Assembly: GCA_017412025.1 (NCBI GenBank)
Contig: JAFQOY010000147.1
Location: 1-24,636 of the forward strand
Length of the DNA: 24,636 bases
Direction of reading: 5' to 3'
Source: Clostridia bacterium
Lineage (GTDB): Bacteria; Bacillota_A; Clostridia; Christensenellales; Aristaeellaceae
The translations under genes and the position numbers were made by a program. Positions 8,171-24,636 of the stretch are shown here, piece by piece. The notes below the pieces were generated by a model that made no database searches, was not told where the DNA came from, and saw only the letters and a program-made list of their open reading frames with translations. Numbering within the stretch: the stretch's first letter is position 1; the number at the start of each line of letters is the position of its first letter.

Positions 8171-8210
8171 GTCTAAGGTTATTTTGTCGAATCTTGAAAG
8201 GAAGTCATTC

Positions 8211-11200
8211 ATGCGTTCCAAGCGGATCAGAAATTCAAGCCCGCCCAGGAGAAAACGCCGTGCGCTCAGGCGCGTCAAGCCCCGCAAGGGCACGCTGACG
8301 TTCCTGCTGCTGCTCAGCGCCCTGCTGGTGGCGCTTATCCTCTTTGCTCCCGGTCTGCATCTGACGCCTGCGGCCAATGTATCCGGCACCGAGATTGACG
8401 AGACGATCGCTGCCACCGGCAACACCAGCCTGCGCGTCAGCGAAGTCATGTCCTCCAACAGCACGGCGTTTCCGGATGAAACCGGTTCCTTCCCCGACTG
8501 GATTGAGCTGACCAACACGGGCGACGCGCCCATTGCGCTTGAAGGCTACGGTCTGTCCGACCGCGCCGACAAGATCACGTTCGTCTTCCCGGATATCACG
8601 CTCAATCCCGGCGAATACCTGATCGTATTCGCATCCGATGAAAACCGGAACGTCGCAGGCAAAACGCTGCACGCCAAGTTCAAGCTCTCCTCCTCCGGCG
8701 ACTCGCTCTTCCTCTTCGGCAGCGACGGCGTCGCCTTCTCGGAGATGACCATTCCCGCAATGGACAGCAACATGAGCTATGCGTTCATCGGCAAAGACGA
8801 GTACATCATCACCAGCCAGTATACGCCCGAGTACGAAAACACGCAGGAGGGCTTCGCCGCCTTCCGCGCCTCGACCGTGCTGACCACAGGCTCTCTGGTG
8901 ATCAATGAAATCTGCGCCTCCTCCATCACCACGCTCCGGGATGAGGACGGGGAGTATCCCGACTGGATCGAGCTGCGCAACACCTCCTCCAGGGCGATCG
9001 ATCTTTCCAATTATGCGCTGAGCGACGACCCGGATTCCCTGGTCAAGTGGCGTTTCCCGCAGGGCAGCGTGATCGAGCCGGGCGGCTACTTCGTGGTCTA
9101 TGCCTCCGACAAGGACAGGCCCGCAGCCTCCTCCTCCCAGTGGCCGCACGCGAGCTTCAAGCTCCGTTCCAACGGCGAAACCGTCATCCTCTCCGACATT
9201 CAGGGCCGCATGCTCGATCTGGTCACGTATGACCTGCTCGACGCCGACGTATCCTGGGGCCGCGACGAGGAGGGCGTATCCGGCTTCAAGCGCTTCACCC
9301 AGCCCACGCCCGGCCTGCCCAACACGCGCGCCGGCGAGGTCGCGATGGACACCTCCTTCTGCCTGGCCAATACGTCCGGCCTGTACATCACGGAAGTCAT
9401 GTCCGGCAACAAAAACGTTGTCGGACCCGGAGTCCGCAATCCTTATGATTACATCGAGATCTACAACATGAGCGGACAGGCCGTCAACCTCAAGGGTTAC
9501 GGCCTGTCCGACAACATCAAAAAACCCAGAAAATGGCTCCTGCCTGATATTACAATCGAAAACAACAGCTATCAGGTCATCTACTGCGACACGACGCAGA
9601 CGACCAAGGACGGCGTTTATTATTTTACAAACTACAATCTGGCCAAATCCGGCGAAACCGTCTGCCTGTCCACACCCGACGGTGAAATCCTTGACAAGGT
9701 TGTCGTTCCCCAGCTCTATGACGACGTCTCCTATGGCCGCACGCTGGGTCAGGCAGGTCTGTTCTACTACTCCTCCCCCACGCCGGGCGACGGCAACGGA
9801 CAGGGCTTCATCGGCTTTGCCGATCTCCCCGTCATCAACACGCCGGGCGGCCTGTACGAGCGCCCGCTTGAAGGCGGCAGCGCCGTCACCATCACAGTTC
9901 CCGCCAATTCCGTCGTCCGCTATACCACGGACGGCACGGACCCCGATCTGCACTCCGAGGAATACACCGGACCGATTCCCATCGAGAAAAACACGGTGCT
10001 GCGCGCCCGCGCCTTCCGCGACGGCGTAGAGCCCTCGCAGATCGTCACGCAGACGTACCTCATCTCCGTCTACCATACGATGCCCGTCGTCTGCCTGACG
10101 ACAGATCCCGACAACCTCTGGAATGAGGCGACCGGCATGTTCGCCGACGGCCCGGAGCTTGACCGCGAGACGCAGGAGCGCCCGTGGGAAAACGCAACCT
10201 ACTGGCAGAAAAACTGGTTCGGCGGCTGGGTGGAATACTACGACACTTCCGGCGTGCAGCAGATCAGCCAGGGCATGACCTTCCGCGTCATGGGCCAGTT
10301 CTCGCTGGATATGCCGCAGAAGAGCCTGTACGTCAAGGCGGACGGCCAATACGGCAAGAGCAGCTTCGACTATGCGTTCTTTGACGAAAGGCCCTATGAA
10401 TCCTACGCCAGCTTCGTCCTGCGCAACGGCGGCCAGGACGGCATGTACTCCCGCGTGATCGACGGCATGCAGGCGCGGCTGGTCGATCAGTCCGGCTCCA
10501 ATCTCGCCAATCAGGCGTGGAAGCCCGTCATCGTCTACATCAACGGCGAATACTGGGGTCACTACAACCTGCGCGAGCGCGCCGGCGCCAAGATGATTGC
10601 GCAGCATGAGGGCTGGGACAATCCCGACGACATCGACCTGCTGGAGAGCGACGGCACCCGTTCCAGCCAGATCAATCAGGGCTCCAACAAGGCCTACAAG
10701 GATCTGGTCGAGTACGTGGAAAGCCACGATCTGGTCAAAGACAGGGAAGCCTTTGAATACGTCTGTTCTCAGATCGATATCGACAACATGCTCGATTACT
10801 TCATCTTCGAGTCGTTCTTCGGCAATACCGACCCGGGCAACATCCGCTTCTACCGCAACGCCAAATCCGGCGACGGCAAGTGGAGATATCTGCTTTACGA
10901 CATCGACTGGGGCTTCTTCAGCGTCCTGGGCAACCGCAATCAGCTCATCGGCGGCGTCGGCTATGTGCTCAACGAAAAGGGTATGGGCGATCACCGCATC
11001 AAGTCAAACGTCCTCATCCGGCATCTGATCAGGGTGCCCGAGATCCAGGATCGGTTCCTCACGCGCTACGGCCATTATTTCCAGACCGTATTCACCACGG
11101 AATACATGACCAATCTCTTTAACCAGATGATCACGCAGATCAAACCGGAGATGCAGATGCACATGCGGCGCTGGGCAGACAAGGTGCATCCCAAGGTCAG

Positions 11201-11387
11201 CTTTGATCAGCCCAAGAACCCTGAAGGCGGCTACAACTACTGGGTATCCCGCTGCGAGCGCATGCTCACGCGAATCTTCCCGCGCCGTCCGTACTACATA
11301 TGGCAGGAAATCATCCAGTACTTCGGTCTCTCCGAGGCGCAGATGGTTGCCTACTTCGGCCCCTGCCCGCCCAAACCCGCTGATTGA
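8211..11387 (+). CDS. Membrane-anchored CotH-family kinase with three lamin-tail domains
   Basis: A 1058-residue surface protein. A strongly basic start (Arg/Lys-rich, residues 1-26) precedes one membrane segment (about 28-46), so the rest faces outward. Three lamin-tail (LTD) beta domains follow, beginning near residues 73 (SLRVSEVMSSNS), 227 (SLVINEICASS) and 389 (GLYITEVMSGN), each with the 'DWIEL/DYIEIYN...L..Y.LSD' pattern. About 542-620 is a chitobiase C-terminal-like domain (RYTTDGTDPD). From about 623 comes the CotH domain, with WGHYNLRERAGAKM and the DxDW metal/catalytic motif LLYDIDWGFF (Asp897, Asp899). CotH proteins are atypical protein kinases known from spore coats. The start at 8211 follows AAAGGAAG; the frame is open upstream without a site. 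It heads an operon with the DUF4956 and VTC genes. Its substrate is unknown. Confidence 0.92.
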   Translation: MRSKRIRNSSPPRRKRRALRRVKPRKGTLTFLLLLSALLVALILFAPGLHLTPAANVSGTEIDETIAATGNTSLRVSEVMSSNSTAFPDETGSFPDWIELTNTGDAPIALEGYGLSDRADKITFVFPDITLNPGEYLIVFASDENRNVAGKTLHAKFKLSSSGDSLFLFGSDGVAFSEMTIPAMDSNMSYAFIGKDEYIITSQYTPEYENTQEGFAAFRASTVLTTGSLVINEICASSITTLRDEDGEYPDWIELRNTSSRAIDLSNYALSDDPDSLVKWRFPQGSVIEPGGYFVVYASDKDRPAASSSQWPHASFKLRSNGETVILSDIQGRMLDLVTYDLLDADVSWGRDEEGVSGFKRFTQPTPGLPNTRAGEVAMDTSFCLANTSGLYITEVMSGNKNVVGPGVRNPYDYIEIYNMSGQAVNLKGYGLSDNIKKPRKWLLPDITIENNSYQVIYCDTTQTTKDGVYYFTNYNLAKSGETVCLSTPDGEILDKVVVPQLYDDVSYGRTLGQAGLFYYSSPTPGDGNGQGFIGFADLPVINTPGGLYERPLEGGSAVTITVPANSVVRYTTDGTDPDLHSEEYTGPIPIEKNTVLRARAFRDGVEPSQIVTQTYLISVYHTMPVVCLTTDPDNLWNEATGMFADGPELDRETQERPWENATYWQKNWFGGWVEYYDTSGVQQISQGMTFRVMGQFSLDMPQKSLYVKADGQYGKSSFDYAFFDERPYESYASFVLRNGGQDGMYSRVIDGMQARLVDQSGSNLANQAWKPVIVYINGEYWGHYNLRERAGAKMIAQHEGWDNPDDIDLLESDGTRSSQINQGSNKAYKDLVEYVESHDLVKDREAFEYVCSQIDIDNMLDYFIFESFFGNTDPGNIRFYRNAKSGDGKWRYLLYDIDWGFFSVLGNRNQLIGGVGYVLNEKGMGDHRIKSNVLIRHLIRVPEIQDRFLTRYGHYFQTVFTTEYMTNLFNQMITQIKPEMQMHMRRWADKVHPKVSFDQPKNPEGGYNYWVSRCERMLTRIFPRRPYYIWQEIIQYFGLSEAQMVAYFGPCPPKPAD

Positions 11388-11468
11388 CGGAACGCTGCAA
11401 GGCGCTTCCTTCGTCACCATAATCCACGTCATTCCATTCAACAAACGATTCAGTAGGAGGACTCATTC

Positions 11469-12143
11469 ATGAACAACATCATCAACGACGCAAGCGTAAA
11501 CGAGTGGTTTTCACAGCAGATGGCCAGCCTCACGCCGATGAAAATGGTGCTGGCGCTGGCGATGGGCTTTGTCGTCGGCCTGATCATCGCGCTGGTCTAT
11601 CGCAAGGCCTTCCGCGGCGTGCTCTATTCTCCGTCCTTTGCCACCACGCTGATCATGCTGTGCATGATCACCACCCCGGTCGTCATGTGTATCAAGTCCA
11701 ACATCGCTCTGTCCATGGGTATGGTCGGCGCGCTGTCCATCGTCCGTTTCCGCACTGCTGTTAAGGATCCGCTGGACACCGCCTACATGTTCTGGAGCCT
11801 GACCATGGGCATCCTGCTGGGCGCCGAGCTGTACACCATCGCGCTCGTCGTCGTCGCCGGCATTTCCATCGCGATGCTCGCCATGGCGTTCTTCCGCCTG
11901 CGCTCCCCGAACACCTTCCTGCTCGTGACCCACTACGACTCCGAGGCGGAAGAGGCCGTGATGGATTTCGTCCGCCGCATCAAGGTGCAGCGCCTGCGCA
12001 GCAAGACCGTGACCCCGGGCGGCACCGAGCTGACCGTCGAAGTGCAGCTGCGCGAGCGCTTTGACATCGTCAACAAGCTGCTGGACACCGAGGGCGTGCA
12101 CAATGCGACCCTGATCGCCTGCCAGTCCGAAGCCGGCAACTAA
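11469..12143 (+). CDS. DUF4956 multi-pass membrane protein
   Basis: A 224-residue membrane protein of the DUF4956 family. About four hydrophobic segments are visible: residues about 23-44, 57-76, 80-95 with 105-122, and 125-146. A soluble C-terminal tail of about 75 residues follows (LLVTHYDSEAEEAVMDFVRR onward). The loop IVRFRTAVKDPLDTAYMFW is the best-conserved stretch of the family. The biochemical role is not known; the family is repeatedly found beside VTC polyphosphate-polymerase genes, as here, which suggests it serves as membrane partner or channel for that enzyme. AGGAGG (11455-11460) fixes the start. It lies 81 bases after the CotH gene with no terminator between. Confidence 0.88.
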   Translation: MNNIINDASVNEWFSQQMASLTPMKMVLALAMGFVVGLIIALVYRKAFRGVLYSPSFATTLIMLCMITTPVVMCIKSNIALSMGMVGALSIVRFRTAVKDPLDTAYMFWSLTMGILLGAELYTIALVVVAGISIAMLAMAFFRLRSPNTFLLVTHYDSEAEEAVMDFVRRIKVQRLRSKTVTPGGTELTVEVQLRERFDIVNKLLDTEGVHNATLIACQSEAGN

Positions 12144-12187
12144 GCAGCCCGCGCTGCACCGACTTCGCTTTCCGGCGGCTTTAACCC

Positions 12188-12217
12188 GTTTCGTTCGGGC
12201 GAAGGGCCCTCCGAAAC
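12188..12217 (+). other. Intercistronic hairpin between the DUF4956 and VTC genes
   Basis: GTTTCG (12188-12193) pairs with CGAAAC (12212-12217) and encloses a smaller TTCG/CGAA pairing and GGGCCC. There is no T run, so it is not a terminator. It may be an RNA-processing or stabilising structure, or chance in GC-rich sequence. Confidence 0.3.
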
Positions 12218-12251
12218 TGCGAAGCAGATCATTCGTGAAGAGGGAGCACTT

Positions 12252-12959
12252 ATGCCAATCATCCGCAACATTCCGCTGAGGCACGAGCTCAAGTACTTCA
12301 TTACGCCCGCTGAGATGAACGTCCTGCGCGGCATTCTGACGCCGGTGATGCAGCTCGATCCCAACGGCAACGAAAACAACGAGTACCACATCCGTTCGCT
12401 GTACTTTGACACGATCAACGACGATGCGCTGGAAGAGAAGATCGCGGGCGTGGGCAACCGCAAAAAGTACCGCATCCGCATCTACAACTTCTCTGACAGG
12501 GTCATCAAGCTGGAGTGCAAGAGCAAATACGGCGACCTGATCTCCAAGCAGTCCGTCACGATTCCGCGCGAGCTGTGCGAGCAGCTTATCGCGGGTGATC
12601 CGGAGGGGCTGCAGCGCATGCGCCATCCCCTGCTGCACGACATGTACCGCGAGATGAAGACCCGCCTGCTGCGCCCGGCTGTGATCGTGGATTACACCCG
12701 CGAGGCGTACATCCATCCCGCGCAGGAGGTGCGCGTGACGTTTGACAAGCAGCTGCGCACAGGCCTTTATTCCCACGACATGTTCAACAAGGCCATCCCC
12801 ACCTATCCGGTCTTTGATGATCCGGTGGAGATCCTTGAGGTCAAGTACGACGAATTCCTGCCCAGCTACATTCAGTCGATCCTCAGCGGCATTACCGCAC
12901 AGCGCAGCGCGATTTCCAAGTATACGCACTGCCGCCGCTACGAAAACAAGGAGTTTTGA
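12252..12959 (+). CDS. VTC-domain polyphosphate polymerase
   Basis: A 235-residue protein that is essentially one VTC domain, the triphosphate-tunnel fold which in yeast Vtc4 makes polyphosphate from ATP. The tunnel's charged residues are visible: RHELKY (Arg10, Glu12, Lys14), RSLYFDT (Arg48), KYRIRIY (Lys72, Arg74, Arg76), KLECKSK (Glu88, Lys90, Lys92), a DYTREAY Arg at 140, and EILEVKYDEFLP (Glu196, Lys198). The domain therefore looks catalytically complete. There is no membrane segment, so it probably works at the inner membrane face with the DUF4956 protein. A purine-rich site (GAGGGA) precedes the ATG at 12252. It is the last gene of the CotH operon, followed by a terminator. Polyphosphate synthesis is inferred from the family; another nucleotide polymerisation is possible. 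Confidence 0.9.
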   Translation: MPIIRNIPLRHELKYFITPAEMNVLRGILTPVMQLDPNGNENNEYHIRSLYFDTINDDALEEKIAGVGNRKKYRIRIYNFSDRVIKLECKSKYGDLISKQSVTIPRELCEQLIAGDPEGLQRMRHPLLHDMYREMKTRLLRPAVIVDYTREAYIHPAQEVRVTFDKQLRTGLYSHDMFNKAIPTYPVFDDPVEILEVKYDEFLPSYIQSILSGITAQRSAISKYTHCRRYENKEF

Positions 12960-13029: not shown

Positions 13030-13515
13030 TCAGATGCCGTCGAGCTTGTCCTTCTTGCGCTGGATACGGATTCTGCGCCGCTCCTCGCCATGCGCCCAGG
13101 CCAGATGCTCGTCCTCCGTCTGCAGGATCAGACGCGGCACGCGCACAGGCTGATCGTTTTCATCCAGAGCAACCATCATAAAGTGCGCATTGTTGATCCT
13201 GCGGCGCTCGCCCAGATGGTTTTCCACGTAGGTATCCACGCAGACCTCCATGGAGGACGAACCCACCCAGGTCATCTTGCCCTTGATGACGACCATCTCG
13301 TTCTGATATGCGCCGTGCAGGAACGTCAGGTTGTCCACAGATGCGGTGGTGACATTGCTCATGGAATGACGCTTGGCGACAATGCCCGCCACCTCGTCAA
13401 TCCACTGCATCAGAATGCCGCCGAAGAGGCGGTTGGCGCCGTTGAGATGATTCGGCCGCACGATGCGGACGGTTTCCACACGGGATTCGTCCACGGTTTT
13501 CGCTTCAATATTCAT
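13030..13515 (-). CDS. Hotdog-fold acyl-CoA thioesterase
   Basis: A 161-residue acyl-CoA hydrolase of the hotdog superfamily (BFIT/YciA-like), which splits an acyl-CoA to the free acid and CoA. The signature NHLNGANRLFGGILMQWIDE lies at residues 22-41, with the FGG loop and Asp40 in the expected catalytic place. TTASVDNLTF and VGSSSMEVCVDTYVE form the central strands. The start at 13515 is preferred because GAGG lies five bases upstream; two earlier in-frame ATGs lack a site. It begins 71 bases after the pyruvate:ferredoxin oxidoreductase gene. The gap holds a six-base hairpin (13546-13573) without a T run, so read-through from the upstream operon is likely. Substrate chain length is unknown. 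Confidence 0.9.
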   Translation of the reverse strand: MNIEAKTVDESRVETVRIVRPNHLNGANRLFGGILMQWIDEVAGIVAKRHSMSNVTTASVDNLTFLHGAYQNEMVVIKGKMTWVGSSSMEVCVDTYVENHLGERRRINNAHFMMVALDENDQPVRVPRLILQTEDEHLAWAHGEERRRIRIQRKKDKLDGI

Positions 13516-13586
13516 ACTTTCCTCTTTCATATTCAGAAATATCATCTGCCGCAGCGAAACCTCCGCACGGCAGTCCTCCGCCTTAC

Positions 13587-16500
13587 TTACTGATTCTCCA
13601 TCGCCTTGTACTTCTTATACCGCGCGATGGAGTCCTCCTTCGCCTGCTTGAAGAGCTTCTGCGCGTATTCCGGGAACGTCCGCCTGAGGGACGCATAGCG
13701 CACCTCGCCGTCAAGGAACTCCTCATAGTCCATCGTCGGCATTTTGGAGTCGATGGTCATCGGCTTTTCCGCATTCGGGTTATAGCGGTAGAGCGTCCAG
13801 TATCCGGCGTCCACCGCGCGCTTCATCTCGCTCTGCACGTTCTTCATGCCGGCCTTGATGCCGTGATTGACGCAGGGCGTATACGCCACCACCACGGACG
13901 GCCCCTTGTGCTCCTGCGCCTCGCGCAGCGCGCGGATCAGCTGATTGGGATCAGCGCCCATCGCCACCTGCGCCACGTATACGTTGCCGTACGTTTTAAA
14001 GATCTCGCCCAGCTCCTTCTTGCGGCTGCGCTTGCCTGCGGAGGCAAACTGCGCCACAGCGCCCAGCGGCGTCGCCTTGGAACTCTGGCCGCCGGTATTG
14101 GAATACACCTCCGTATCGATGACGAATACGTTGATGTCCTCGCCGCTGGCGATCACATGGTCCAGGCCGCCAAAGCCGATGTCATACGCCCATCCATCGC
14201 CGCCGAACATCCAGAAGCACTTCTTTGCCAGCTGGTCCCGGCGCTCCAGGATCTTCTTTGCCAGATCGGTATCCGCGCTCTCCAGCTCGGCAATCAGGCT
14301 GTCCGTCGCCCTGCGGGAAGCGTCAAAGTCGTCAAACGCATCGAGCCACGCCGCAGCGGCCGCACTGCCCGTCTGCGCCGCGTATTCCTCCACCAGCGCC
14401 TTCTGCTTCTCCCGCTGCTGCCTGACGGAGAGGAACATGCCAAGCTCCATCTCCGCGTTGTTTTCAAACAGGCTGTTCGTCCACGCGGGGCCAAAGCCGC
14501 GCTTGCTGGTCGTATACGGAATACCCGGCATCGGGGATCCCCATGCCTGCGAGCAGCCCGTCGCGTTCGCCCAGTACACACTCTCGCCGAAGAGCTGCGT
14601 GAGCAGCTTGGCATACGGCGTCTCGCCGCAGCCCGCGCAGGCGGCGGAGAACTCGACAAGCGGCTGACGGAACTGGCTGCCCTTGATGCTGTAGACCGGG
14701 AATACGTCGCCCTTGTCGGAAAGCGACAGGCCGTACGCCCAGTGCTCGCGGTGCTTCGCGGTAAACGCGGCCGGTTCCATGGCAATCGCCTTCTCCTTGG
14801 CCGGGCAGCAGGCCACGCAGCTGCCGCAGCCGGTGCAGTCAAGCGCAGAGATCTGCATGCTGAAGTGCATGCCCTTTGCGGCGGCGCCGATAGCAGGCGC
14901 CGTTTCAAATCCATCCGGTGCGCTTTGCTTCTCCTCCTCGCTGAGCAGATACGGGCGGATGACGGCATGCGGGCAGACCAGCGCGCAGCGGTTGCACTGA
15001 ATGCACTTCGCTGCGTCCCACTTCGGAATGCTCAGCGCAATGCCGCGCTTTTCAAACGCGGTCAGGCCCATGTCAATGCGGCCGTCCTCATAGCCCTTAA
15101 ACGCGCTGACAGGCAGATCGTCGCCCTTCTGGCGATTGATGGGCAGCAGCAGCTTCTTCACAACGTCCGGCAGCTGCGCGCTGTCCGCATCCGCCTCTGG
15201 CTGCGCCGCGCCCCAGGAGGCCGGCACGTCCACACGCACAATCTGCGTCGCGCCCGCGTCAATCGCGGCGACGTTGCGCGCCACCACGTCGTCTCCCTTG
15301 GCAAAGTATGTCCTGCGGACGGCGTCCTTGATCATCTCAAGCGCTTTTTCCGTGGGAATCACATCCATCAGCGCGAAGAACGCAGCCTGCAGCACCGTAT
15401 TGGTATGGCTGCCCAGGCCCAGATCGCGGGCGATGGCGTTGGCGTCGATCATGTAAAACCGAATGTTCTTCTGCGCGATCTGACGCCTGACAGCGGCGGG
15501 GATGTGCGCTTCAAGCTCGTCCGCCTTCCAGCTGCAGTTGAGCAGGAATGTGCCGCCGGGCACAATCTCATCCACGATGTCGTACTGCGTCATGTAGCTC
15601 TGGTTGTGGCAGGCGCCAAAATCGGCCTGCTTAACGAAATAGGAGCTTGTAATCGGCCTGTCGCTGAAGCGCAGGTGCGATTTCGTCACGCCGAAGGACT
15701 TCTTGGCGTCATATTCAAAGTATGCCTGAGCAAACTTCTCCGTGTTGTCGTTGATGATGCGAACCGTGTTGTGGTTCGCGCCGACGGTGCCGTCTCCGCC
15801 AAGACCCCAGAACTTGCAGCGCACGAGGCCTGCCGTATCCTCCTCATAGGGCTTCAGCGGCAGGGAAAGATGCGTCACGTCGTCATGGATGCCCACGGTA
15901 AAGCTGCGCACAGGATGGGCGGACGCGAGATTGTCAAACACCGCAGCAATCTGCGCCGGATCCGTATCCTTGGAGCTGAGGCCATAGCGTCCGCCGATGA
16001 CCTTGATGCTCAGGTCGCTGTTCATCAGCACGCTGCACACGTCCTCAAACAGCGGCTCGCCCACGCCGCCCATCGCCTTGCAGCGGTCAAGCACCGCAAT
16101 GCGCTGCGTGGTCTTGGGCAGCGCGGCGAGGAAGTGCTTTGCGGAGAATGGACGATACAGGTGCACCTGCAGGAAGCCGACCTTCCTGCCCTGCCCGTTC
16201 AGCCTCCTGGTCACGTCGCGGATCACGCCGCTGGCGGAACCCATGGCGATCACCACGTCCGTCGCGTCCTCCGCGCCATAGTAGTTGAACGCGTGGTATT
16301 CCCTGCCGGTGATCTTCGCCATCTCGGAAAGATACTTTTCCACAATGTCCGGCAGCGCGCTGTAAAAGCCGTTGTTCGCCTCGCGCACCTGGAAGTAGAC
16401 GTCGCCGTTCTGCACCGTGTTGCGCAGCATCGGGTGCTCCGGATTGAGCGCGCCGTCGCGGAAAGCCTTCAGCGCATCCTGATCGATCAGCGCAGCCACC

Positions 16501-17069
16501 TTTTCCATATCCGGCAGCTCGATCTTGTTGATCTCATGGGACGTGCGGAAACCGTCAAAGAAGTGCATGAACGGTATCCGTCCCTCGATCGCGCTCAGAT
16601 GCGCGACGGGCGCAAGGTCCGCCACCTCCTGCACGCTGCCCGCGCTGAGCATGGCAAAGCCGGTCTGCCGGCAGGCCATCACGTCGCTGTGGTCGCCGAA
16701 GATGCTCATCGCATGCGTGCCCACCGTGCGCGAGGCCACATGCAGCACGGCCGGCAGGCGCTCGCCCGCGATCCTGTAGAGCACGGGCACCATCAGCATC
16801 AGGCCCTGCGAGGAGGTATACGTCGTCGCCAGCGAGCCCGTCTGCAGCGCGCCGTGCACAGCGGTGATCGCGCCCGCCTCAGACTGCATCTCCGTCAGCG
16901 TCACCGTCTGACCAAATACATTCTTTCTGCCCTTGGCCGACCAGGCGTCCGTCAGTCCCGCCATCGGGGAGGACGGCGTAATCGGGTAAATCGCCGCGAT
17001 CTCCGTAAAGGGGTATGCCATCGTCGCGGCCGCTTCGTTGCCGTCCATGGTCACATATTTTCCAGCCAT
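13587..17069 (-). CDS. nifJ: Pyruvate:ferredoxin (flavodoxin) oxidoreductase
   Basis: A full-length 1160-residue single-chain pyruvate:ferredoxin oxidoreductase. It converts pyruvate and CoA to acetyl-CoA and CO2 and passes electrons to ferredoxin or flavodoxin, the central step of anaerobic clostridial metabolism. The N-terminal domain has YPITPSSPM and TSSQGLMLMVP. Two [4Fe-4S] sites follow: CIQCNRCALVCP (about 688-700) and CTGCGSCVACCP (about 742-755). The C-terminal thiamine-diphosphate domain has CAGCGETPYAK (about 810), GDGWAYDIGFGGLDH (about 955) and the Mg-binding YSNTGGQSSKATP. GAGGTGA precedes the ATG at 17069. It begins 36 bases after the isomerase-ligase fusion gene, with no terminator or promoter in the gap, so it is probably read from the T-box promoter. 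No deletion or frameshift was seen. Confidence 0.98.
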   Translation of the reverse strand: MAGKYVTMDGNEAAATMAYPFTEIAAIYPITPSSPMAGLTDAWSAKGRKNVFGQTVTLTEMQSEAGAITAVHGALQTGSLATTYTSSQGLMLMVPVLYRIAGERLPAVLHVASRTVGTHAMSIFGDHSDVMACRQTGFAMLSAGSVQEVADLAPVAHLSAIEGRIPFMHFFDGFRTSHEINKIELPDMEKVAALIDQDALKAFRDGALNPEHPMLRNTVQNGDVYFQVREANNGFYSALPDIVEKYLSEMAKITGREYHAFNYYGAEDATDVVIAMGSASGVIRDVTRRLNGQGRKVGFLQVHLYRPFSAKHFLAALPKTTQRIAVLDRCKAMGGVGEPLFEDVCSVLMNSDLSIKVIGGRYGLSSKDTDPAQIAAVFDNLASAHPVRSFTVGIHDDVTHLSLPLKPYEEDTAGLVRCKFWGLGGDGTVGANHNTVRIINDNTEKFAQAYFEYDAKKSFGVTKSHLRFSDRPITSSYFVKQADFGACHNQSYMTQYDIVDEIVPGGTFLLNCSWKADELEAHIPAAVRRQIAQKNIRFYMIDANAIARDLGLGSHTNTVLQAAFFALMDVIPTEKALEMIKDAVRRTYFAKGDDVVARNVAAIDAGATQIVRVDVPASWGAAQPEADADSAQLPDVVKKLLLPINRQKGDDLPVSAFKGYEDGRIDMGLTAFEKRGIALSIPKWDAAKCIQCNRCALVCPHAVIRPYLLSEEEKQSAPDGFETAPAIGAAAKGMHFSMQISALDCTGCGSCVACCPAKEKAIAMEPAAFTAKHREHWAYGLSLSDKGDVFPVYSIKGSQFRQPLVEFSAACAGCGETPYAKLLTQLFGESVYWANATGCSQAWGSPMPGIPYTTSKRGFGPAWTNSLFENNAEMELGMFLSVRQQREKQKALVEEYAAQTGSAAAAAWLDAFDDFDASRRATDSLIAELESADTDLAKKILERRDQLAKKCFWMFGGDGWAYDIGFGGLDHVIASGEDINVFVIDTEVYSNTGGQSSKATPLGAVAQFASAGKRSRKKELGEIFKTYGNVYVAQVAMGADPNQLIRALREAQEHKGPSVVVAYTPCVNHGIKAGMKNVQSEMKRAVDAGYWTLYRYNPNAEKPMTIDSKMPTMDYEEFLDGEVRYASLRRTFPEYAQKLFKQAKEDSIARYKKYKAMENQ

Positions 17070-17105: not shown

Positions 17106-19622
17106 TCAGTCCTTGCCCTTCGCGGTGTCGATGCCGGCGGCGCCGACCAGGCCAAGCCGCCTGGACGCTTCCTCGCGCATCTTATACTTGAGCACCTTGC
17201 CCGCCGCGTTCATCGGGAAGGAATCGACAAATTCGATGTACCGCGGCACCTTGTGGCGCGCCATGCTCGCCGCGATATAGTCATGCATCTCTTCAACGGT
17301 CACGGCGCAGTTCTCCTTGAGGATGATGCAGGCCATGGCCTCCTCGCCATAGCGCCTGTCCGGCACGCCGATGACCTGCACGTCGCGCACGGACGGATGC
17401 GTATAGATGAACTCCTCGATCTCCTTGGGATAGATGTTTTCGCCGCCGCGGATGATCATGTCCTTCAGCCTGCCAGTGATGCGGTATGTGCCGTCGGCGT
17501 CCCTGCAGGCCAGATCGCCGGAATGCAGCCATCCCTCCGCGTCAACCGTATCGCGCGTCGCCTCGGGCATCTTGTAATAGCCCTTCATCGTGTTGTAGCC
17601 TCGGGAGCAGAACTCGCCGTTTACGCCGTCCGGCACGGTCTCGCCCGTCTCCGGGTCGATGATCTTGCACTCGATGTGCGGGAAATTGTAACCGACGGTA
17701 TTGGTGCGCAGGTCCAGCGGATCCTCCCATGCGGACATCGTGCTGCCGGGCGAGGACTCCGTCTGTCCATACACGCTGACGATGCCGCGCATGTTCATCT
17801 CATTTGGATCGGCTGCGCGGCGCATCAGCTCAGGCGGGCAGCCTGCGCCGGCCATGATGCCCGTGCGCATGTAGGAGAAATTGGTCTTTCTGTAGTCCTC
17901 ATGGTTGAACATGGCGATGAACATCGTCGGCACGCCGTTAAAGCACGTGATGCGCTCCTGATTGATGCACGCCAGAGAGGACTTGGCGGAGAAATACGGC
18001 AGCGGACAGACCGTCGCGCCATGGGTCATCGAGGCGGTCATGGAGAGCACCATGCCAAAGCAATGGAACATGGGCACCTGAATCATCATGCGGTCCGCCG
18101 TGGACAGGCCCATGCGGTCGCCGATGCACTTGCCGTTGTTGACGACGTTGTAATGCGTGAGCATGACGCCCTTGGGGAAGCCCGTCGTACCGGAGGTGTA
18201 CTGCATGTTGCATACGTCGTCCGGACGCACGCGCGCAGCCATGCGGTGCAGCTCCTCAGGCGCAACCAGCTCAGCCCTATCCATCGCCTCGTCAAACGTC
18301 AGGCAGCCTGGCTGCCTGAAGCCAACCGTAATCACGTTGCGCAGGAACGGAAGGCGCTTGCAGTGCAGCGGTCTGCCCGGCGTGCTCGATGCAATTTCCG
18401 GGCACAGGTCGTTGATGATCTGCCTGTAGTTGGAATCCAGGCAGGATTCGATCATGATCAGCGTATGCGTATCCGACTGGCGAAGCAGATAATCCGCCTC
18501 ATGGCTCTTATACGCCGTATTGACCGTCACCAGCACCGCGCCGATCTTCGTCGTCGCCCAGAAGGCGATATACCACGCGGGCACATTGGTCGCCCAGACG
18601 GACACCTTCATGCCCGCCTTCACGCCCAGGGAGATGAGCGCACGGGCAAAATTGTCCACATCCTCGCGGAACTCCTCATACGTGCGCACATAATCAAGCG
18701 TCGTATACTTGAACGCATACTGATCCGGGAATTCCTCCACCATACGGTCAAGCACCTGGGAAAACGTCAGGTTGATCAGCTCGTCCTTTTTCCACACATA
18801 CTGGCCCGTGCCGTCGTGGTTGGGATAGAGCGATTTCTTCTTGCCGCGCGTCTTTTCAAAGCGGCTCATGTAGTTGACAAAGTGCGGGAAGATGACCTCG
18901 TAATCCGGCAGATCCTCCATCCAGTCCACCTTCCACTCAAGCGAGATGAAGCCGTCGTAGTCGATGGAGGAAAGCGCGCGCATCATATCCGCCACGGGCA
19001 GCGTGCCTTCGCCGATGAGGTTATAGGTATCCTTATCGTCCGAGTCTCGCAGATGCACATGCTTCACATACGCGCCCAGATTCTTGATCGTCGTATCCGC
19101 GCTCTCGCCAAAGTCCCGGTAGGGATGATGCATATCCCAGAGCGCAGCCAGCTGGTCGCAGGCAAAATCATCCATCAGCGCGCGCAGCCGGGCCGTATTG
19201 GCATAGATGCCGCTGGTCTTGATCAGGATGGTGACGCCGGCCTCCTCCGCGTCGCAAAGCAGCTCGCCGATGCGCTCACGCACCGTCTCTTCCCTGTCGC
19301 TGAGCGCCACCACCGTCACATACGGCACCTGCATCAGCTTTGCCGTCTGGATGAGTCCCCTGAGCGAGGGAACAAAGTTTTCTTCGTTGGAGGAAAGATC
19401 GCACGACGTATCAAAGCAGGGAATCATCAGCTTCTTTTCGCGCAGCTGGCGCGCCGTCGCCGCCATGTTGTATTTGTGGAAGGGCGCGCTGCGCTCCATC
19501 ATCTCCGGAAATTTGGGCAGGTTATAGACCTCGATGCCCTCAAAATCCATATTGACGCCGATATCGAGACATTCTTCCCAGCTCAGATGGGACCAGCCTC
19601 GGGTCGAAAAGGAAAGCTTCAT
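17106..19622 (-). CDS. Fusion: TIM-barrel sugar isomerase-like domain plus AMP-forming acyl-CoA synthetase
   Basis: An 838-residue two-domain protein. Residues 1 to about 265 follow the xylose-isomerase-like TIM barrel (sugar phosphate isomerase/epimerase): Asp163 in LWDMHHPYRD, KHVHLRD (His188, His190) and Glu229 in ISLEW are likely metal-site residues. However, the strand where the family usually has a metal-binding Glu reads TILIKTSG, with Lys135. From about 275 to the end is an acyl-CoA synthetase: the P-loop YTSGTTGFPKGVMLTHYN (about 473-490), YGQTESSPG (about 617), GRLKDMIIRGGENIYPKEIE (about 716) and a C-terminal AGKVLKYKMRE with the adenylation Lys, so this half looks active. The start overlaps the upstream stop by four bases (ATGA). 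The linker (about 255-275) is Lys-rich. The acid substrate is not readable from the sequence. Confidence 0.88.
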   Translation of the reverse strand: MKLSFSTRGWSHLSWEECLDIGVNMDFEGIEVYNLPKFPEMMERSAPFHKYNMAATARQLREKKLMIPCFDTSCDLSSNEENFVPSLRGLIQTAKLMQVPYVTVVALSDREETVRERIGELLCDAEEAGVTILIKTSGIYANTARLRALMDDFACDQLAALWDMHHPYRDFGESADTTIKNLGAYVKHVHLRDSDDKDTYNLIGEGTLPVADMMRALSSIDYDGFISLEWKVDWMEDLPDYEVIFPHFVNYMSRFEKTRGKKKSLYPNHDGTGQYVWKKDELINLTFSQVLDRMVEEFPDQYAFKYTTLDYVRTYEEFREDVDNFARALISLGVKAGMKVSVWATNVPAWYIAFWATTKIGAVLVTVNTAYKSHEADYLLRQSDTHTLIMIESCLDSNYRQIINDLCPEIASSTPGRPLHCKRLPFLRNVITVGFRQPGCLTFDEAMDRAELVAPEELHRMAARVRPDDVCNMQYTSGTTGFPKGVMLTHYNVVNNGKCIGDRMGLSTADRMMIQVPMFHCFGMVLSMTASMTHGATVCPLPYFSAKSSLACINQERITCFNGVPTMFIAMFNHEDYRKTNFSYMRTGIMAGAGCPPELMRRAADPNEMNMRGIVSVYGQTESSPGSTMSAWEDPLDLRTNTVGYNFPHIECKIIDPETGETVPDGVNGEFCSRGYNTMKGYYKMPEATRDTVDAEGWLHSGDLACRDADGTYRITGRLKDMIIRGGENIYPKEIEEFIYTHPSVRDVQVIGVPDRRYGEEAMACIILKENCAVTVEEMHDYIAASMARHKVPRYIEFVDSFPMNAAGKVLKYKMREEASRRLGLVGAAGIDTAKGKD

Positions 19623-21034
19623 GCCATCTCCGCCTCCTCATAGGTAATCTTGTTGAGCGCATTGATGTAGGCCTGAATGCTGGAGCCTACGATATCCGTC
19701 GACGTGCCGCGCCCGGAATAAAGCTTGCCGCTGGAGCGGAGGCGGACGACGGTTTCGCCCATGGCCTCGCGGCCCTCGGTGACCGAGCGGATCTGGAAGT
19801 CGTCCAGCTCATAATGGCAGCCCAGAATATTCTCGATGGCGAGGAACGCCGCATCGACCGGACCATCGCCGATGGCCACGCCCTCCAGCTTCTGCCCGTG
19901 CTTTTCAAGGCACATGTAGGCCATCGAGGAGGACGTGTTGCTTGCCGTGATGGAATAGCTGCGCAGCACATAGGTCGAGGGCACCTGCATCGCGGCGGAG
20001 GCGACAATGGTATCCAGCTCGCGGCTGGTGATCACTTCCCTGCGCGCAGCAATGGTCTGAAACGCCTCCCACACGCGCGCGCCGTCCTCCTCGCTCAGAT
20101 CATAGCCGAGCTTTTCCACTGCCTTGAGCACCGACGTGATGCTGTCATGGCTGGTGAGCGACACCTCGTCCGTCATCTCCTGCACGCCGTTGTCAAACGG
20201 AGAATTCTTGCTCCTTCGCGTTTCGCACATCCACGCAATCTGCTTGACAATGCGGTTCATCTCCACCGTGCGCACCGGACAGCTTACGCCCCAGACATCG
20301 CCCTTGGCCGCAAGCAGACGCGAGACGTTTGACAGCGAAACCTGATCGATCTGATAAGCAGCCGCCTTGATCTCTCTCACGCCGTGTTTGATCGCCGCAA
20401 TCGCGCAGGCGTCCGCCATGGCCAGCTCGTTCAGGCAGGAAAGGCCGAGCACGACCGTTCTGAGCTCCTCCACATTGCCGTAGAGCGCATCCAGGAATTC
20501 TCCCAGCTCATCCGGCAGAATGGCGCCCGTCGCATCGCAGACTGTCACGGTCTTTGCGCCCGCGCGGATCGCGGCGGCAATCGCCTGATACAGGAATTCC
20601 CTGTCGCTGCGCGTCGCGTCCTCCGCGACAAACTCCACGTCCGCCGTCTTTGCGCAGCAGGCAGAAACGGTCTCTTCAATCGCCTTCAGCATCGCGGCAG
20701 GCTTTTTCCTGAACAGGTATTCCATCTGCACCGTGCTGACTGAGGCGCACACCTGCAGGCGCGGATGCCTGGCTTCCTTCAGCGCGTTCCACGTCGCGTC
20801 GATGCTCTCCTGCGACAGCTGAACCGGAACGGCGACAACGCTGTTTTTCACCGTAGAGGCGACGGATTTGATCCTCAGCGCATCGATTTTCATCTGCACA
20901 ATCGGCTCAAGCTCAATCACAGATACGCCCAATCGATCCAATAGCTTCGGAATCTCTATCTTTTCCTTGAAAGAAAGTATAAAGCCCTTTCCGGTCTGCT
21001 TCATGGTGACGTCGCTGATTCTGATCTGTTCCAT
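19619..21034 (-). CDS. 2-isopropylmalate synthase homologue without the catalytic residues
   Basis: A 471-residue LeuA-family protein with a DRE-TIM-type barrel and a C-terminal LeuA regulatory domain (from about residue 340, TYVLRSYSITASNTSSSMAY onward, ending RGTSTDIVGSSIQAYINAL). Its active site is stripped. The family's DTTLRDGEQ is DVTMKQTGK (residues 8-16). The metal-binding HxH reads Ser-Cys-Leu (199-201) before NELAMADAC. The GERAGN loop reads DQVSLSN (230-236). The second-shell VEFVAEDATRSD (133-144) and CDATG are kept. Isopropylmalate synthesis is therefore unlikely; leucine binding or a different reaction is possible. The start at 21034 is chosen because GGGGAG lies upstream; an ATG at 21055 abuts the terminator tail and has no site. 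The gene lies directly behind the T-box leader. Confidence 0.85.
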   Translation of the reverse strand: MEQIRISDVTMKQTGKGFILSFKEKIEIPKLLDRLGVSVIELEPIVQMKIDALRIKSVASTVKNSVVAVPVQLSQESIDATWNALKEARHPRLQVCASVSTVQMEYLFRKKPAAMLKAIEETVSACCAKTADVEFVAEDATRSDREFLYQAIAAAIRAGAKTVTVCDATGAILPDELGEFLDALYGNVEELRTVVLGLSCLNELAMADACAIAAIKHGVREIKAAAYQIDQVSLSNVSRLLAAKGDVWGVSCPVRTVEMNRIVKQIAWMCETRRSKNSPFDNGVQEMTDEVSLTSHDSITSVLKAVEKLGYDLSEEDGARVWEAFQTIAARREVITSRELDTIVASAAMQVPSTYVLRSYSITASNTSSSMAYMCLEKHGQKLEGVAIGDGPVDAAFLAIENILGCHYELDDFQIRSVTEGREAMGETVVRLRSSGKLYSGRGTSTDIVGSSIQAYINALNKITYEEAEMA

Positions 21035-21060
21035 TGTGCTGCTCCCCTTTTCCATTCAGA

Positions 21061-21349
21061 AAATAAAAAGTCCTTGAAGCGTTTGCTTCAAGGACGAACA
21101 TGGCATTCGCGGTACCACCTTGATTACAGCAGCCTTGCGGCATACTGTCACTCTCGGGCTCTATCAAGCCCACAGCCTGTAACGGGGCGACCGTACTCCA
21201 CTACTCAAACATACATCCTTCGCAGAGTCAACTCAGGAGTGAGACTGCTTCTTCCCTCCGTACCGGCTTGCACCAGCCGCCGGCTCTCTGAAACATCCGT
21301 AAAGAAGCTTACTTCCGTTATCGTCTTTCTTATCCGGTTCTGTGAAATT
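21061..21349 (-). ncRNA. T-box leader, probably leucine-tRNA sensing
   Basis: Read on the minus strand, the leader carries the T-box core AGGTGGTACCGCG (21120-21108), an AGAGAG element followed by a CCGGC/GCCGG hairpin in stem I, a GGGCTTGATAGAGCCC hairpin, and a terminator: an 11-base stem (21095-21085 with 21080-21070) with a T-rich tail (21069-21061). The probable specifier segment ACTCCTGAGTTG (from 21240) contains CTC (21239-21237) and an overlapping CTG, both leucine codons; CCT (Pro) is a competing reading. The variable base of the TGGN core is T, which pairs with an A discriminator, as in tRNA-Leu. Uncharged tRNA would stabilise the antiterminator and switch on the LeuA-like operon. 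Confidence 0.92.
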
Positions 21350-21355
21350 AGCGTA

Positions 21356-21384
21356 AGTATATCACAAAGGAGCCTGCAAGTCAA
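21356..21384 (-). promoter_or_regulatory. Promoter of the T-box operon
   Basis: On the minus strand TTGACT (21384-21379) and TATACT (21361-21356) are 17 bases apart. Transcription should start near 21349, just before stem I of the T-box. Confidence 0.88.
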
Positions 21385-21593: not shown

Positions 21594-22505
21594 ATGCCAT
21601 ATGATCTCACTCAGCCGCTGGTGATCGGCATTTCATCCCGAGCGTTGTTCAACCTTGAAGAAGAAAACCGGATATTTGAGCAGCAGGGCATCGAATCCTA
21701 TGCGGCATATCAGAAGGAACACGAAAACGACATCCTGCAAAAGGGTCCTGCCTTTCAGCTTGTCAAAGCTTTTCTGCGCCTGAACAAGCCGGACGAGCCC
21801 AGGATGGTCGAGGTTATCATCATGTCGCGCAACAGTCCGGATACGAGCCTGCGCATCTTCAAGTCCGTTCAGGCCTATGGACTGGATATCACCCGCGCTG
21901 CACTGGTGGGCGGCGCAGAGATGACGCCCTACCTCAAGGCGTTCAAGACCGATCTCTTCCTTTCCGCACACGACGAGGACGTGCGGCAGGCTGTCGATCA
22001 CAACATCGCGGCAGGCCGTATCGTGACAGGCAGTTCAACCGAAGATGGACAAATCGACCAGATCCGCATTGCCTTCGACGGCGACGCCGTGCTCTTTGCC
22101 GCCGAATCCGAACGGATCTTTCAAAAGCACGGCCTTCAAGCCTTCCTGGCACACGAGGTTTCCCATGCCGACGAGCCGCTTTCCCGCGGGCCGTTTGCCA
22201 ATTTCCTGATGACGCTCTCCAACCTGCAAAGCCAGTTCAAAACGCGTGAGGAATCCCCCATCCGTACGGCGCTGGTCACATCGCGCAGCGCGCCTGCGCA
22301 CGAGCGCGCGATCAAGACCCTGCGCAAGTGGAATGTCCGCGTGGACGAGGCCTTCTTCCTGGGCGGCGTCCGCAAGAAAGAGGTGCTCTCCGCATTCGGC
22401 GCGCATATCTTCTTTGACGATCAGGAGGTGCATACCACGCCCGCTTCCGAGGTGGTATCCTCTGCCGTGGTGCCCTACAGAAAGGGCGATGATCCGCACG
22501 CATAA
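21594..22505 (+). CDS. Cytosolic 5'-nucleotidase (cN-I-like family)
   Basis: A 303-residue protein of the bacterial/animal cN-I-like 5'-nucleotidase family (Pfam 5-nucleotidase), which dephosphorylates nucleoside monophosphates such as AMP or IMP. Visible signatures are VIGISSRALFNLEEENRIF at the N-terminus, VEVIIMSRNSPDTSLRIF (about 72-89), the HAD-like nucleophile motif IAFDGDAVLFAAESERIF, ALVTSRSAPAHERAIKTLR and FFLGGVRKKEVLSAFGAHIF. The length is close to the family's usual 300. The start at 21594 follows AGAAGG; an ATG at 21558 lies only just past the -10 box. No signal peptide is present. It stands alone under its own promoter, divergent from the T-box operon. Its stop codon adjoins an 85-base repeat. 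It could feed nucleosides to the salvage enzymes at the other end of the window. Confidence 0.92.
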   Translation: MPYDLTQPLVIGISSRALFNLEEENRIFEQQGIESYAAYQKEHENDILQKGPAFQLVKAFLRLNKPDEPRMVEVIIMSRNSPDTSLRIFKSVQAYGLDITRAALVGGAEMTPYLKAFKTDLFLSAHDEDVRQAVDHNIAAGRIVTGSSTEDGQIDQIRIAFDGDAVLFAAESERIFQKHGLQAFLAHEVSHADEPLSRGPFANFLMTLSNLQSQFKTREESPIRTALVTSRSAPAHERAIKTLRKWNVRVDEAFFLGGVRKKEVLSAFGAHIFFDDQEVHTTPASEVVSSAVVPYRKGDDPHA

Positions 22506-22509
22506 TACT

Positions 22510-22594
22510 ATTCTCAAATCAAGCTGTGCCGTCTTTTCGCATCTTTTTCGTCCTGTCGCCGCTTCGTTTCAGTCAGCTCAGACAGGACAAGAAT
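22510..22594 (-). repeat. Inverted repeat copy 1 (85 bp)
   Basis: On the minus strand this matches copy 2 (23935-24049, plus strand) at 79 of 85 aligned bases, apart from 30 extra bases in copy 2. It contains an eight-base inverted pair, GTCCTGTC (22550-22557) and GACAGGAC (22581-22588). It starts four bases after the 5'-nucleotidase stop codon and runs into the desulfhydrase gene, whose last codons and stop it supplies. No transposase is present. Confidence 0.9.
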
Positions 22595-23543
22595 CCGCCC
22601 TCCAGCCTGCAAACAGCCCGCCCGCGCCGCCGGAATGCAGAAACAGCACGCGTTCCTCCGGCGCGAAGGCGCCCTCCTTTGCCATGGCAATCAGACCGGC
22701 GAAGGCCTTGCCCGTATAAACCGGATCCAGGAATATACCTTCCTGGGCGGCCATCAGCGATACGGCGGCATTGCCCTGGTCAGACGGAATCGCATAACCT
22801 GGCCCACACTGATCGCGGAGCGCAAAATCATCGCCTGTGATGGAGATATCCGCCTCAAGCAGCGCGGCCGCCTCGCGCATCAGCGAAAGCGTGATCACGT
22901 CAAACGGATCGCTGTCGACCATCATGCCCGTCACCCGGGTACCGGGCATAAAGAGCTTTGCGCCCAGCGCAAGGCCTGCCATGGTGCCGCCGCTGCCTTC
23001 CGCGCAGATGATATGGTCAAACTGCATCCCCTGATCCCGGATCTCGCGCACGCAGTCCACATAGCCCAGCGTCCCCAGCGCATTGGAACCGCCGCAGGGA
23101 ATCTTGTAATACGGCCTCCCGAGCGCCGCGCCCACGCGATCCATCTCCGCATAGATGTCCGCATAATCGTCCGTATCCATAAACCGGACGTCAACGCCCA
23201 TCAGGTGATTGAGCAGCTGATTGCCCAGCCTCTCAGTCACGCCGCGCTTTTTTAGAATCAGAATCGGCTCCATACCCAGCTTTCTGGCGGCAGCCGCGGT
23301 CAGCATGGCGTGGTTGCTCTGTGCTCCGCCTGTGGTGAACACGACCTGAGCGCCCTTTGCCTTCGCATCCGCAAGGAGGAATTCAAGCTTGCGCACCTTG
23401 TTGCCGCCCAGGCCAAGGCCGGTCATGTCGTCGCGCTTGATATAAATCTCAGCGCCAAGCGCGCGGCTGATGTTATTGAGCCTGTAAACCGGAGTCGGCA
23501 GGATACCGAGCGATATCCTGTCAAAATGATCAAGCGATTTCAT
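22578..23543 (-). CDS. D-cysteine desulfhydrase / ACC deaminase-family PLP enzyme
   Basis: A 321-residue fold-type II PLP enzyme of the D-cysteine desulfhydrase/ACC deaminase family. D-cysteine desulfhydrase gives pyruvate, sulfide and ammonia. The PLP lysine is in LGLGGNKVRKLEFLL (Lys49). TTGGAQSNHAMLTAAAA is the substrate-carboxylate loop, and AEGSGGTMAGLALGAK and LHSGGAGGLFAG bind the cofactor phosphate and close the fold. Which amino acid is the true substrate cannot be told; D-cysteine is the usual bacterial assignment. AGGGGA precedes the ATG at 23543. The last residues, about from DSCPV, and the stop codon fall inside the 85-base repeat, so the C-terminus was probably changed by that element. 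It has its own promoter far upstream (23776-23804) and a leader of about 225 bases. Confidence 0.9.
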   Translation of the reverse strand: MKSLDHFDRISLGILPTPVYRLNNISRALGAEIYIKRDDMTGLGLGGNKVRKLEFLLADAKAKGAQVVFTTGGAQSNHAMLTAAAARKLGMEPILILKKRGVTERLGNQLLNHLMGVDVRFMDTDDYADIYAEMDRVGAALGRPYYKIPCGGSNALGTLGYVDCVREIRDQGMQFDHIICAEGSGGTMAGLALGAKLFMPGTRVTGMMVDSDPFDVITLSLMREAAALLEADISITGDDFALRDQCGPGYAIPSDQGNAAVSLMAAQEGIFLDPVYTGKAFAGLIAMAKEGAFAPEERVLFLHSGGAGGLFAGWRADSCPV

Positions 23544-23934: not shown

Positions 23935-24049
23935 ATTCTTGTCCTGTCTAAGCTGAGTGAAAGAAAGCACAGCTGCGCGGCGTTGACTGGAACGAATCGA
24001 CAACAGGACGAAAAAGATGCGAAAAGACGGCACAGATTGATTTGAGAAT
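23935..24049 (+). repeat. Inverted repeat copy 2 (115 bp)
   Basis: Plus-strand copy of the element at 22510-22594, with 30 additional bases after AGCT (about 23955-23984). A 32-base stretch ending the second half is identical in both copies. It also has the GTCCTGT/ACAGGAC inverted pair. It begins, in the sense of the SPFH gene, four bases after that gene's stop codon, the same offset as copy 1 has from the nucleotidase stop. Confidence 0.9.
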
Positions 24050-24053
24050 CGTG

Positions 24054-24636
24054 TTACTTCACGTCGGCCTCGTCAAACGGATCGCCGCACTCCGGGCAGA
24101 ACTTCGGCGGATTCGCCGGATCCTCGGGCTTGAAGCCGCACTTGTCACACTGGTACAGCGGAGCGCCCGCGGGCTTCTTCGCGCCGCATTCCGGGCAGAA
24201 CTTGCCCCTGTTCACAGAGCCGCACGCGCAGGTCCAGCCCTCCTTCGTCTCGGGCTTCTTCGCGCCGCACTCCGGGCAGAACTTGCCGGTCGCCGCCGTG
24301 CCGCACGCGCAGATCCAGCCGTTTGCCGCAGGCTTTGCCTGCTGCACGGGCTGCACCGGCTGCGCAGCCTGCTGCCTCGCGCCCAGCTCAAACAGCTGCG
24401 CGGCATTGACCCCGCCGCTGCCCTGCGCCATGTTCATGCCCATAAAGCCGGTGAACGCGCCGCCCGCGTTCTTCGCCGCGTCCTGCATGGCCTGCGCCTG
24501 CGCGCCGACCATGTGCGCCGCCGCCATGTTCGCATTGCGGAATACCGCGTTGCGCTGCAGCTCCTTGATCATGGCCTCGTCCTCTTCGGAGGCCTTGACG
24601 GAATTGACGCCGAGGGAGACGATCTCCACGCCGCGC
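24054..24636 (-). CDS. SPFH-domain protein with three C-terminal zinc ribbons, 5' part cut by window edge
   Basis: The last 193 residues of an SPFH (band 7/virion-core-like) protein of the YdjI type. The visible start RGVEIVSLGVNSVKASEEDE is the end of the SPFH domain. A helical, Ala/Gln/Met-rich linker follows (MVGAQAQAMQDAAKNAGG, GFMGMNMAQ, then a QPVQPVQQ run). Three four-cysteine zinc ribbons end the protein: two near-identical ones (WICACGTAATGKFCPECG, about 24254-24318; WTCACGSVNRGKFCPECG, about 24171-24237) and a longer third (YQCDKCGF...KFCPECG, about 24074-24150). The gene continues beyond base 24636, so the GTG at 24629 is not taken as the start. SPFH proteins assemble on membranes; in Firmicutes this type is linked to membrane-stress responses. 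The duplicated ribbons suggest recent domain repetition. Confidence 0.88.
   Translation of the reverse strand, partial: RGVEIVSLGVNSVKASEEDEAMIKELQRNAVFRNANMAAAHMVGAQAQAMQDAAKNAGGAFTGFMGMNMAQGSGGVNAAQLFELGARQQAAQPVQPVQQAKPAANGWICACGTAATGKFCPECGAKKPETKEGWTCACGSVNRGKFCPECGAKKPAGAPLYQCDKCGFKPEDPANPPKFCPECGDPFDEADVK

Follow-up and report, generated by a model that had tools for sequence, protein, structure and literature searches.

A LeuA paralogue without its catalytic residues, kept behind a leucine T-box in Clostridia, as a possible leucine sensor for an acyl-CoA ligase fusion

What purpose does a homologue of 2-isopropylmalate synthase (LeuA) serve when its active site is lost and it is still kept behind a leucine leader? 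The question is raised by a gene at 19619..21034 (minus strand) of contig JAFQOY010000147.1 (GenBank assembly GCA_017412025.1) from a Clostridia bacterium of the Aristaeellaceae, of which a stretch of 24,636 nucleotides, here called the window, was analysed. The gene encodes 471 amino acids. Its start was taken as the ATG at 21034, an alternative ATG at 21055 being placed before the probable ribosome-binding site, and the 120 listed protein relatives (79–100% identical to the window protein) have similar lengths of 465–472 amino acids. The initial annotation had described a maintained, regulated pseudoenzyme, which could be a sensor, a partner of another synthase or an enzyme with a new chemistry. 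The reading favoured here, with a probability of roughly 50%, is that this LeuA-derived pseudoenzyme senses leucine, adjusts the acyl-CoA ligase encoded by the neighbouring fusion gene and serves a route from isovalerate to leucine.

The window protein has the HMGL-like TIM barrel fold (residues 1–270; 20225..21034, minus strand) and the LeuA_dimer regulatory domain (residues 346–471; 19622..19999, minus strand; PF08502, 104.6 bits with a cut-off of 24.9), the latter with the motifs GDGPVDAAF (389–397) and STDI (445–448). It scored under the cut-offs of all listed LeuA models, the best being NF002086 (299 of 532), with 264 of 598.7 for TIGR00973. Upon alignment with E. coli LeuA, R13-D14-G15 is replaced by K-Q-T (K12-Q13-T14; 20993..21001, minus strand), H202-T203-H204 is replaced by S-C-L (S199-C200-L201; 20432..20440, minus strand, also read from the sequence itself) and GERA is deleted. 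In LeuA, D14, H202 and H204 are metal ligands and the asparagine of the GERAGN loop is the metal asparagine. The alignment thus bears out the earlier claim that the RDG motif, both metal histidines and the GERAGN loop are lost. The explanation that the catalytic residues lie at shifted positions was ruled out by the alignment and a fold comparison.

Of 8000 candidates scored in a protein search, 7863 passed at E 1e-3, and true LeuA is probably among them. A genome scan returned 127 matching loci, and the results given here cover 80 of these, 48–89% identical, in records named for example Clostridia, Lachnospiraceae, Oscillospiraceae, Ruminococcus and two Eggerthellaceae; loci L014 and L015, which come from separate stretches of the same contig and encode identical proteins, are not independent. 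For the comparison of residues and identities, 83 LeuA-like members were set against 24 canonical type-I LeuA proteins. D14, H202 and H204 were found in none of the 83 and in all 24. The GERAGN loop is shortened in every member, with E234 and R235 deleted in 83/83, and its asparagine column (N238) holds N in seven members and Q in the window protein. At the RDG site, K is present in 68/83 and Q in 65/83 (E. coli columns 13 and 14). In a tree of 62 rows, all 33 sampled LeuA-like members fell in one clade (support 100/100), which groups with canonical type-I LeuA (joint support 95/89). As the loss is common to all 83 members and the 33 sampled form a single clade in the tree, it defines one clade; the substitutions, for which a search among homologues had been suggested, are conserved in so far as they remove the metal ligands. 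The deepest-branching LeuA-like proteins sampled, L163 and L164, come from genomes G071 and G241, in which runs of ilv and leu genes are still present, and may show the state before the loss of LeuABCD.

Decay was considered as the simplest explanation. A decaying pseudogene or an assembly artefact would account for the lost catalytic residues and for an in-frame stop in one of the 80 loci. The same loss recurs, however, in 83 sequences that come from many assemblies and belong to one clade, the frame is intact in 78 of the 80 loci, and the dN/dS ratios point to purifying selection in both domains: 14 pairs were computed, four with saturated dS gave no ratio, and the ten with usable dS ranged from 0.04 to 0.15 for the barrel and from 0.02 to 0.07 for the regulatory domain. 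On the residue alignment, the tree and the dN/dS ratios this explanation was rejected, and its probability is negligible.

The two domains are not equally constrained. Mean pairwise identity in the LeuA-like family is 0.72 for the regulatory domain and 0.54 for the barrel, whereas in canonical LeuA it is 0.46 and 0.64. This inversion holds for nearly every pair, the regulatory domain being more identical in 3401/3403 LeuA-like pairs and the barrel in 266/276 canonical pairs. The description of an intact frame with a well-preserved C-terminal domain therefore stands, the regulatory domain being the most conserved part of the protein, and because constraint has moved to this leucine-type domain, a sensor fits best among the three roles first proposed. 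Its main rival is a new chemistry, in which the barrel is alive and carries out a metal-free reaction in the same pathway, for instance on the CoA ester or the 2-oxoacid of the neighbouring enzymes, with the regulatory domain exerting normal feedback inhibition. The low dN/dS of the barrel agrees with this, as do E44, E137 and D170 (E. coli numbering), which are invariant in 83/83 members and in the canonical set, and the frequent K13 and Q14 noted above. If the barrel were an enzyme, a constant pocket would be expected, but here the GERAGN loop is shortened, various residues occupy the H204 column (S, A, V, C, L and others) and the barrel is the less conserved domain, the opposite of canonical LeuA. 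A new reaction is thus considered unlikely, though less so than any other rival.

The leader of the gene suggests which signal is involved. A full-length match to the T-box family RF00230 (110.1 bits, gathering cut-off 93) lies at 21087..21330 (minus strand) and ends about 50 nucleotides upstream of the gene, with the specifier triplet CUC (leucine) placed in the stem I loop at 21241..21243 (minus strand) by alignment to the Rfam consensus. The intrinsic terminator of the T-box, an 11 bp stem followed by a T-run, was located at 21070..21095 (minus strand); the scan of the region gave two terminator-like sites with 6.7 expected, and it is the position that supports this one. A sigma-70-like promoter candidate (TTGACT-17-TATACT, with TG before the second hexamer) at 21356..21384 (minus strand) came from a consensus scan with two matches in the region and 2.6 expected; weak alone, it is supported by its place directly upstream of the T-box.

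Upstream regions of the window gene and the 80 loci were searched by pattern, and a T-box core was found in 68 of the 81. With the specifier place set from the Rfam alignment of the window leader, all 68 read CUC, CUG or CUU (CUN), while the preceding bases vary. CUN was the sole specifier-pattern match in 24 leaders, and the further matches elsewhere in the other 44 were set aside. T-boxes open when the tRNA is uncharged, which for a leucine specifier means leucine starvation, and leucine control in Bacillus subtilis was reportedly traced to a CUC triplet by Marta in 1996. In some bacteria leuA itself follows a T-box, according to a 2008 T-box survey (PMC2494555), in whose consulted passages leuA is mentioned once and the term acyl-CoA nowhere. 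One clade, low dN/dS and an upstream leucine T-box agree with the first description of a gene that is kept and regulated, and support, at the level of sequence, a maintained, T-box-regulated pseudoenzyme paralogous to type-I LeuA.

The LeuA-like gene shares a 4-nucleotide overlap with the gene that follows it, which encodes a fusion protein of 838 amino acids (17106..19622, minus strand) with a xylose-isomerase-like TIM barrel (18843-19622, minus strand) and an AMP-forming acyl-CoA ligase (about 17151-18791, minus strand). The fusion adjoins the LeuA-like gene in 79/80 loci. Genome-wide occurrence was counted in the carrier genomes of relatives and in a class sample of 291 genomes from the class of genome G003 (named Roseburia; presumably Clostridia). 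The LeuA-like protein (at least 448 bits) was found in 34 of the 291, besides a split gene in G111, and the fusion in 91, including a few matches cut by contig ends. All 34 carriers have the fusion, 33 by search and G186 by inspection of its contig. In linked fusions longer than 700 amino acids the ligase keeps the motifs that we take to be catalytic, TSGTTG in 70/70 and N-x-x-G-K in 67/70; its nearest subfamily is PRK12583 (667 of 832).

Sixteen fusions without a LeuA-like gene were also read (L169-L179 and L181-L185); L180 and L186, which have a ligase without the isomerase half, were not counted as fusions. At position 135, the site of the first metal glutamate of the isomerase, E is present in 16/16 of these lone fusions and in 7/70 linked ones, in which K is found in 60/70, whereas D163, H190 and E229 are kept in all 70 linked fusions; the divergent fusion of L167, outside the 70, has lost more isomerase residues. 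As this glutamate is lost in linked fusions only, the isomerase domain of the fusion has changed as well in loci that carry the LeuA-like protein. That 63/70 linked and 0/16 lone fusions have lost it, together with the constant adjacency and the overlap in the window, would fit a structural or scaffold role, in which the protein binds the fusion barrel to barrel and leucine binding is lost or incidental. Such a role leaves it hard to see why the regulatory domain, with its GDGP and STDI motifs kept, is the most constrained part, and a scaffold is considered improbable, more so than a new reaction.

Genomes with the LeuA-like protein are poor in the usual leucine pathway. LeuC, searched with one clostridial model at E 1e-100, was found in 4/33 LeuA-like genomes compared to 173/257 others (Fisher 1e-9), and in 46/57 genomes with a lone fusion compared to 4/34 with fusion and LeuA-like protein. 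G003 was left out of the Fisher test and of the VorB tests below and was kept in the 46/57 and 4/34 counts; the split gene of G111 was counted as LeuA-like in the latter and in the VorB comparisons and not in the Fisher test. LeuB exceeded its cut-off in 5/34 LeuA-like genomes. Gaps in the assemblies raise the number of absences, yet would not be expected by themselves to produce the contrast between groups. When true leuA was sought elsewhere in the genome, as had been proposed, another LeuA_dimer protein was found in 9/34 class-sample carriers and in 7/32 genomes of a first set, those to which 32 of the first 80 loci belong. In that first set ilvC was found in 18/32 genomes and not in the other 14, which may therefore be unable to supply a LeuA with 2-oxoisovalerate. 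The suggestion of a synthase partner, a hetero-oligomer in which the protein regulates a true LeuA encoded elsewhere, could apply to genomes with both, such as G071 and G241. It is disfavoured by the 25/34 and 25/32 carriers without another LeuA_dimer protein, some of which may be missing through incomplete assemblies, and is regarded as very improbable.

The genes next to the fusion suggest a possible replacement for this pathway. In the window, a PFOR-type 2-oxoacid:ferredoxin oxidoreductase follows 36 nucleotides after the fusion (13587..17069, minus strand), and a PFOR is directly downstream in 22/80 loci. Among 79 loci, 23 have a PFOR-type enzyme, 38 have VOR genes and 60 have at least one of these; a branched-chain aminotransferase is present in 20 and a relative of HTH-cupin acyl-CoA ligases in 47. 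Eight loci have none of the four, and in six of these the contig ends at or within 129 nucleotides after the fusion match. The tested VorB and aminotransferase pass their NCBIfam cut-offs. VorB was found in 83/90 genomes with the fusion compared to 101/200 without, and in 31/34 LeuA-like genomes compared to 153/256 others. In locus L025 the order is ilvB-ilvN-ilvC-ilvD-aminotransferase-[LeuA-like]-fusion-PFOR, with the ilv names taken from N-terminal sequence, ilvC confirmed on the same contig and the branched-chain aminotransferase identified by profile match. The 22 PFORs at least 61% identical to that of the window, of which one (L139) comes from outside the LeuA-like loci, are set apart from 14 paralogues by positions that are constant otherwise, such as A112, G117, M121 and N870, which presumably lie near the pyruvate pocket. 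A second PFOR, in some cases partial, is present in 10/15 genomes with an operonic one. In loci L036 (4675-9338) and L071 (1986-6714), tandem HTH-cupin-acyl-CoA ligase fusions lie near VOR genes; it is unusual for a ligase to carry such a transcription-factor-like head, and the one tested matched MbcS best, well below the cut-off.

VOR and PFOR are reversible enzymes, and the same genes could form a catabolic operon leading from leucine over 4-methyl-2-oxopentanoate and isovaleryl-CoA to isovalerate. This would be hard to reconcile with a leucine specifier in 68/68 leaders that open on uncharged tRNA, with an AMP-forming ligase, an enzyme type that runs towards the CoA ester, and with the general lack of LeuB and LeuC; breakdown of leucine is held to be less probable than a scaffold role and slightly more probable than a partner of true LeuA.

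The neighbour and VorB data are consistent with the reductive carboxylation of an acyl-CoA; in combination with the leucine T-box they make isovalerate the most likely acid. In the favoured mechanism, an external branched acid, most likely isovalerate, would be converted to its CoA ester by the fusion ligase. Reductive carboxylation of isovaleryl-CoA, by the PFOR-type enzyme in the window or by VOR elsewhere, would then give 4-methyl-2-oxopentanoate, from which a branched-chain aminotransferase would form leucine. Leucine scarcity would open the T-box and plenty would close it; plenty would also act through the LeuA-like protein to slow the ligase, in the manner of HisZ with HisGS. In this scheme we infer that the protein binds leucine and makes contact with the fusion, as we do the direction of control and the ligase substrate. 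A wider version, to which we hold tentatively and with somewhat less confidence, is that LeuA was converted once only into a leucine-gated subunit of the fusion and that in roughly a tenth of the sampled class species (33/290) these genes replace LeuABCD and produce leucine from isovalerate.

Several observations weigh against the sensor mechanism. E44, E137 and D170 are invariant and the K-Q pair is common, which could point to residual or new catalysis. In two of the ten usable pairs it is the regulatory domain that shows the higher dN/dS. The in-frame stop in L012 (10001-11404), at codon 268, separates barrel and regulatory domain and reflects a damaged copy, a genuine split of the gene or an error in sequencing. 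The pattern search found no T-box core in 13 of the 81 upstream regions. The fusion occurs without the LeuA-like protein in 57/291 class genomes, and nine of the 16 full lone fusions have their own T-box core upstream, all nine with CUC (Rfam confirmed eight T-boxes among the 12 lone-fusion loci searched), so the fusion can work alone. VOR or PFOR is near only one of these 16, VorB is present in half of the genomes without fusion, and the operonic oxidoreductase matches the pyruvate:ferredoxin oxidoreductase model well over its cut-off. As the genomes are related, the P values overstate independence.

Compared with known systems, the LeuA-like protein resembles type-I LeuA (E. coli LeuA, TIGR00973, PRK00915) in its TIM barrel and LeuA_dimer architecture and in its place in the tree. 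It differs in the lack of D14, H202 and H204, the shortened GERAGN loop, scores under all listed LeuA cut-offs, the shift of constraint to the regulatory domain and linkage to an acyl-CoA ligase fusion instead of leuBCD. HisZ, not homologous, derives from histidyl-tRNA synthetase, whereas the LeuA-like protein derives from the first enzyme of the pathway itself, and its complex and inhibition are proposed only. HisZ is described as the regulatory subunit of the short ATP phosphoribosyltransferase HisGS (PMC9734150). Of the marks of a HisZ-like role, loss of catalytic residues from an enzyme fold and an effector-binding-type domain under selection were both found; for control of a partner the evidence is gene linkage. 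Leucine can derive from carboxylation of isovalerate, according to a passage of a rumen-culture study (PMC7356843) citing Allison, Bryant and Doetsch 1962. These are likewise gut anaerobes, and the ligase, 2-oxoacid:ferredoxin oxidoreductase and aminotransferase genes found here match the steps; the rumen route is known biochemically, while the present carriers are known from genes, with the substrate proposed from these. MbcS, the branched short-chain acyl-CoA synthetase of Staphylococcus aureus, is the best NCBIfam match of two ligases tested beside LeuA-like loci, but both are far under the cut-off (440 and 411 of 850) and the fusion ligase itself is nearest to another subfamily, as given above. 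MbcS is described as using isovalerate poorly (PMC10026030). Among the papers listed by searches of open-access PubMed Central, none dealt with a LeuA pseudoenzyme or with the genes of an isovalerate-to-leucine route.

Other features of the window were annotated as well. The PFOR gene is followed by a 4HBT thioesterase-family gene (13030..13545, minus strand), probably the last of the transcript, and the scan found no terminator-like sites between the genes of this operon. At 7665-12959 (plus strand), genes for a Lamin-tail/CotH kinase protein, DUF4956 and a VTC domain are consecutive. Two inverted-repeat pairs (73 nucleotides, 90% complementary, and 34 nucleotides, 88%), at 22503-22594 and 23935-24056, lie around a D-cysteine desulfhydrase-family gene (22578-23543) and may represent either a mobile cassette or paired terminators.

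The LeuA-like proteins carry the names hypothetical protein, 2-isopropylmalate synthase and alpha-isopropylmalate synthase regulatory domain-containing protein in their source records, of which 2-isopropylmalate synthase would credit the carrier species with a pathway that is absent from most of them. If the sensor mechanism is true, it would supply the genes and control logic for a leucine route known biochemically from rumen bacteria for decades and would explain the apparent lack of leucine synthesis in many gut Clostridia. It would also add, beside HisZ, another natural case of a dead enzyme fold serving as an amino-acid sensor, one that descends from the same enzyme that it replaces.

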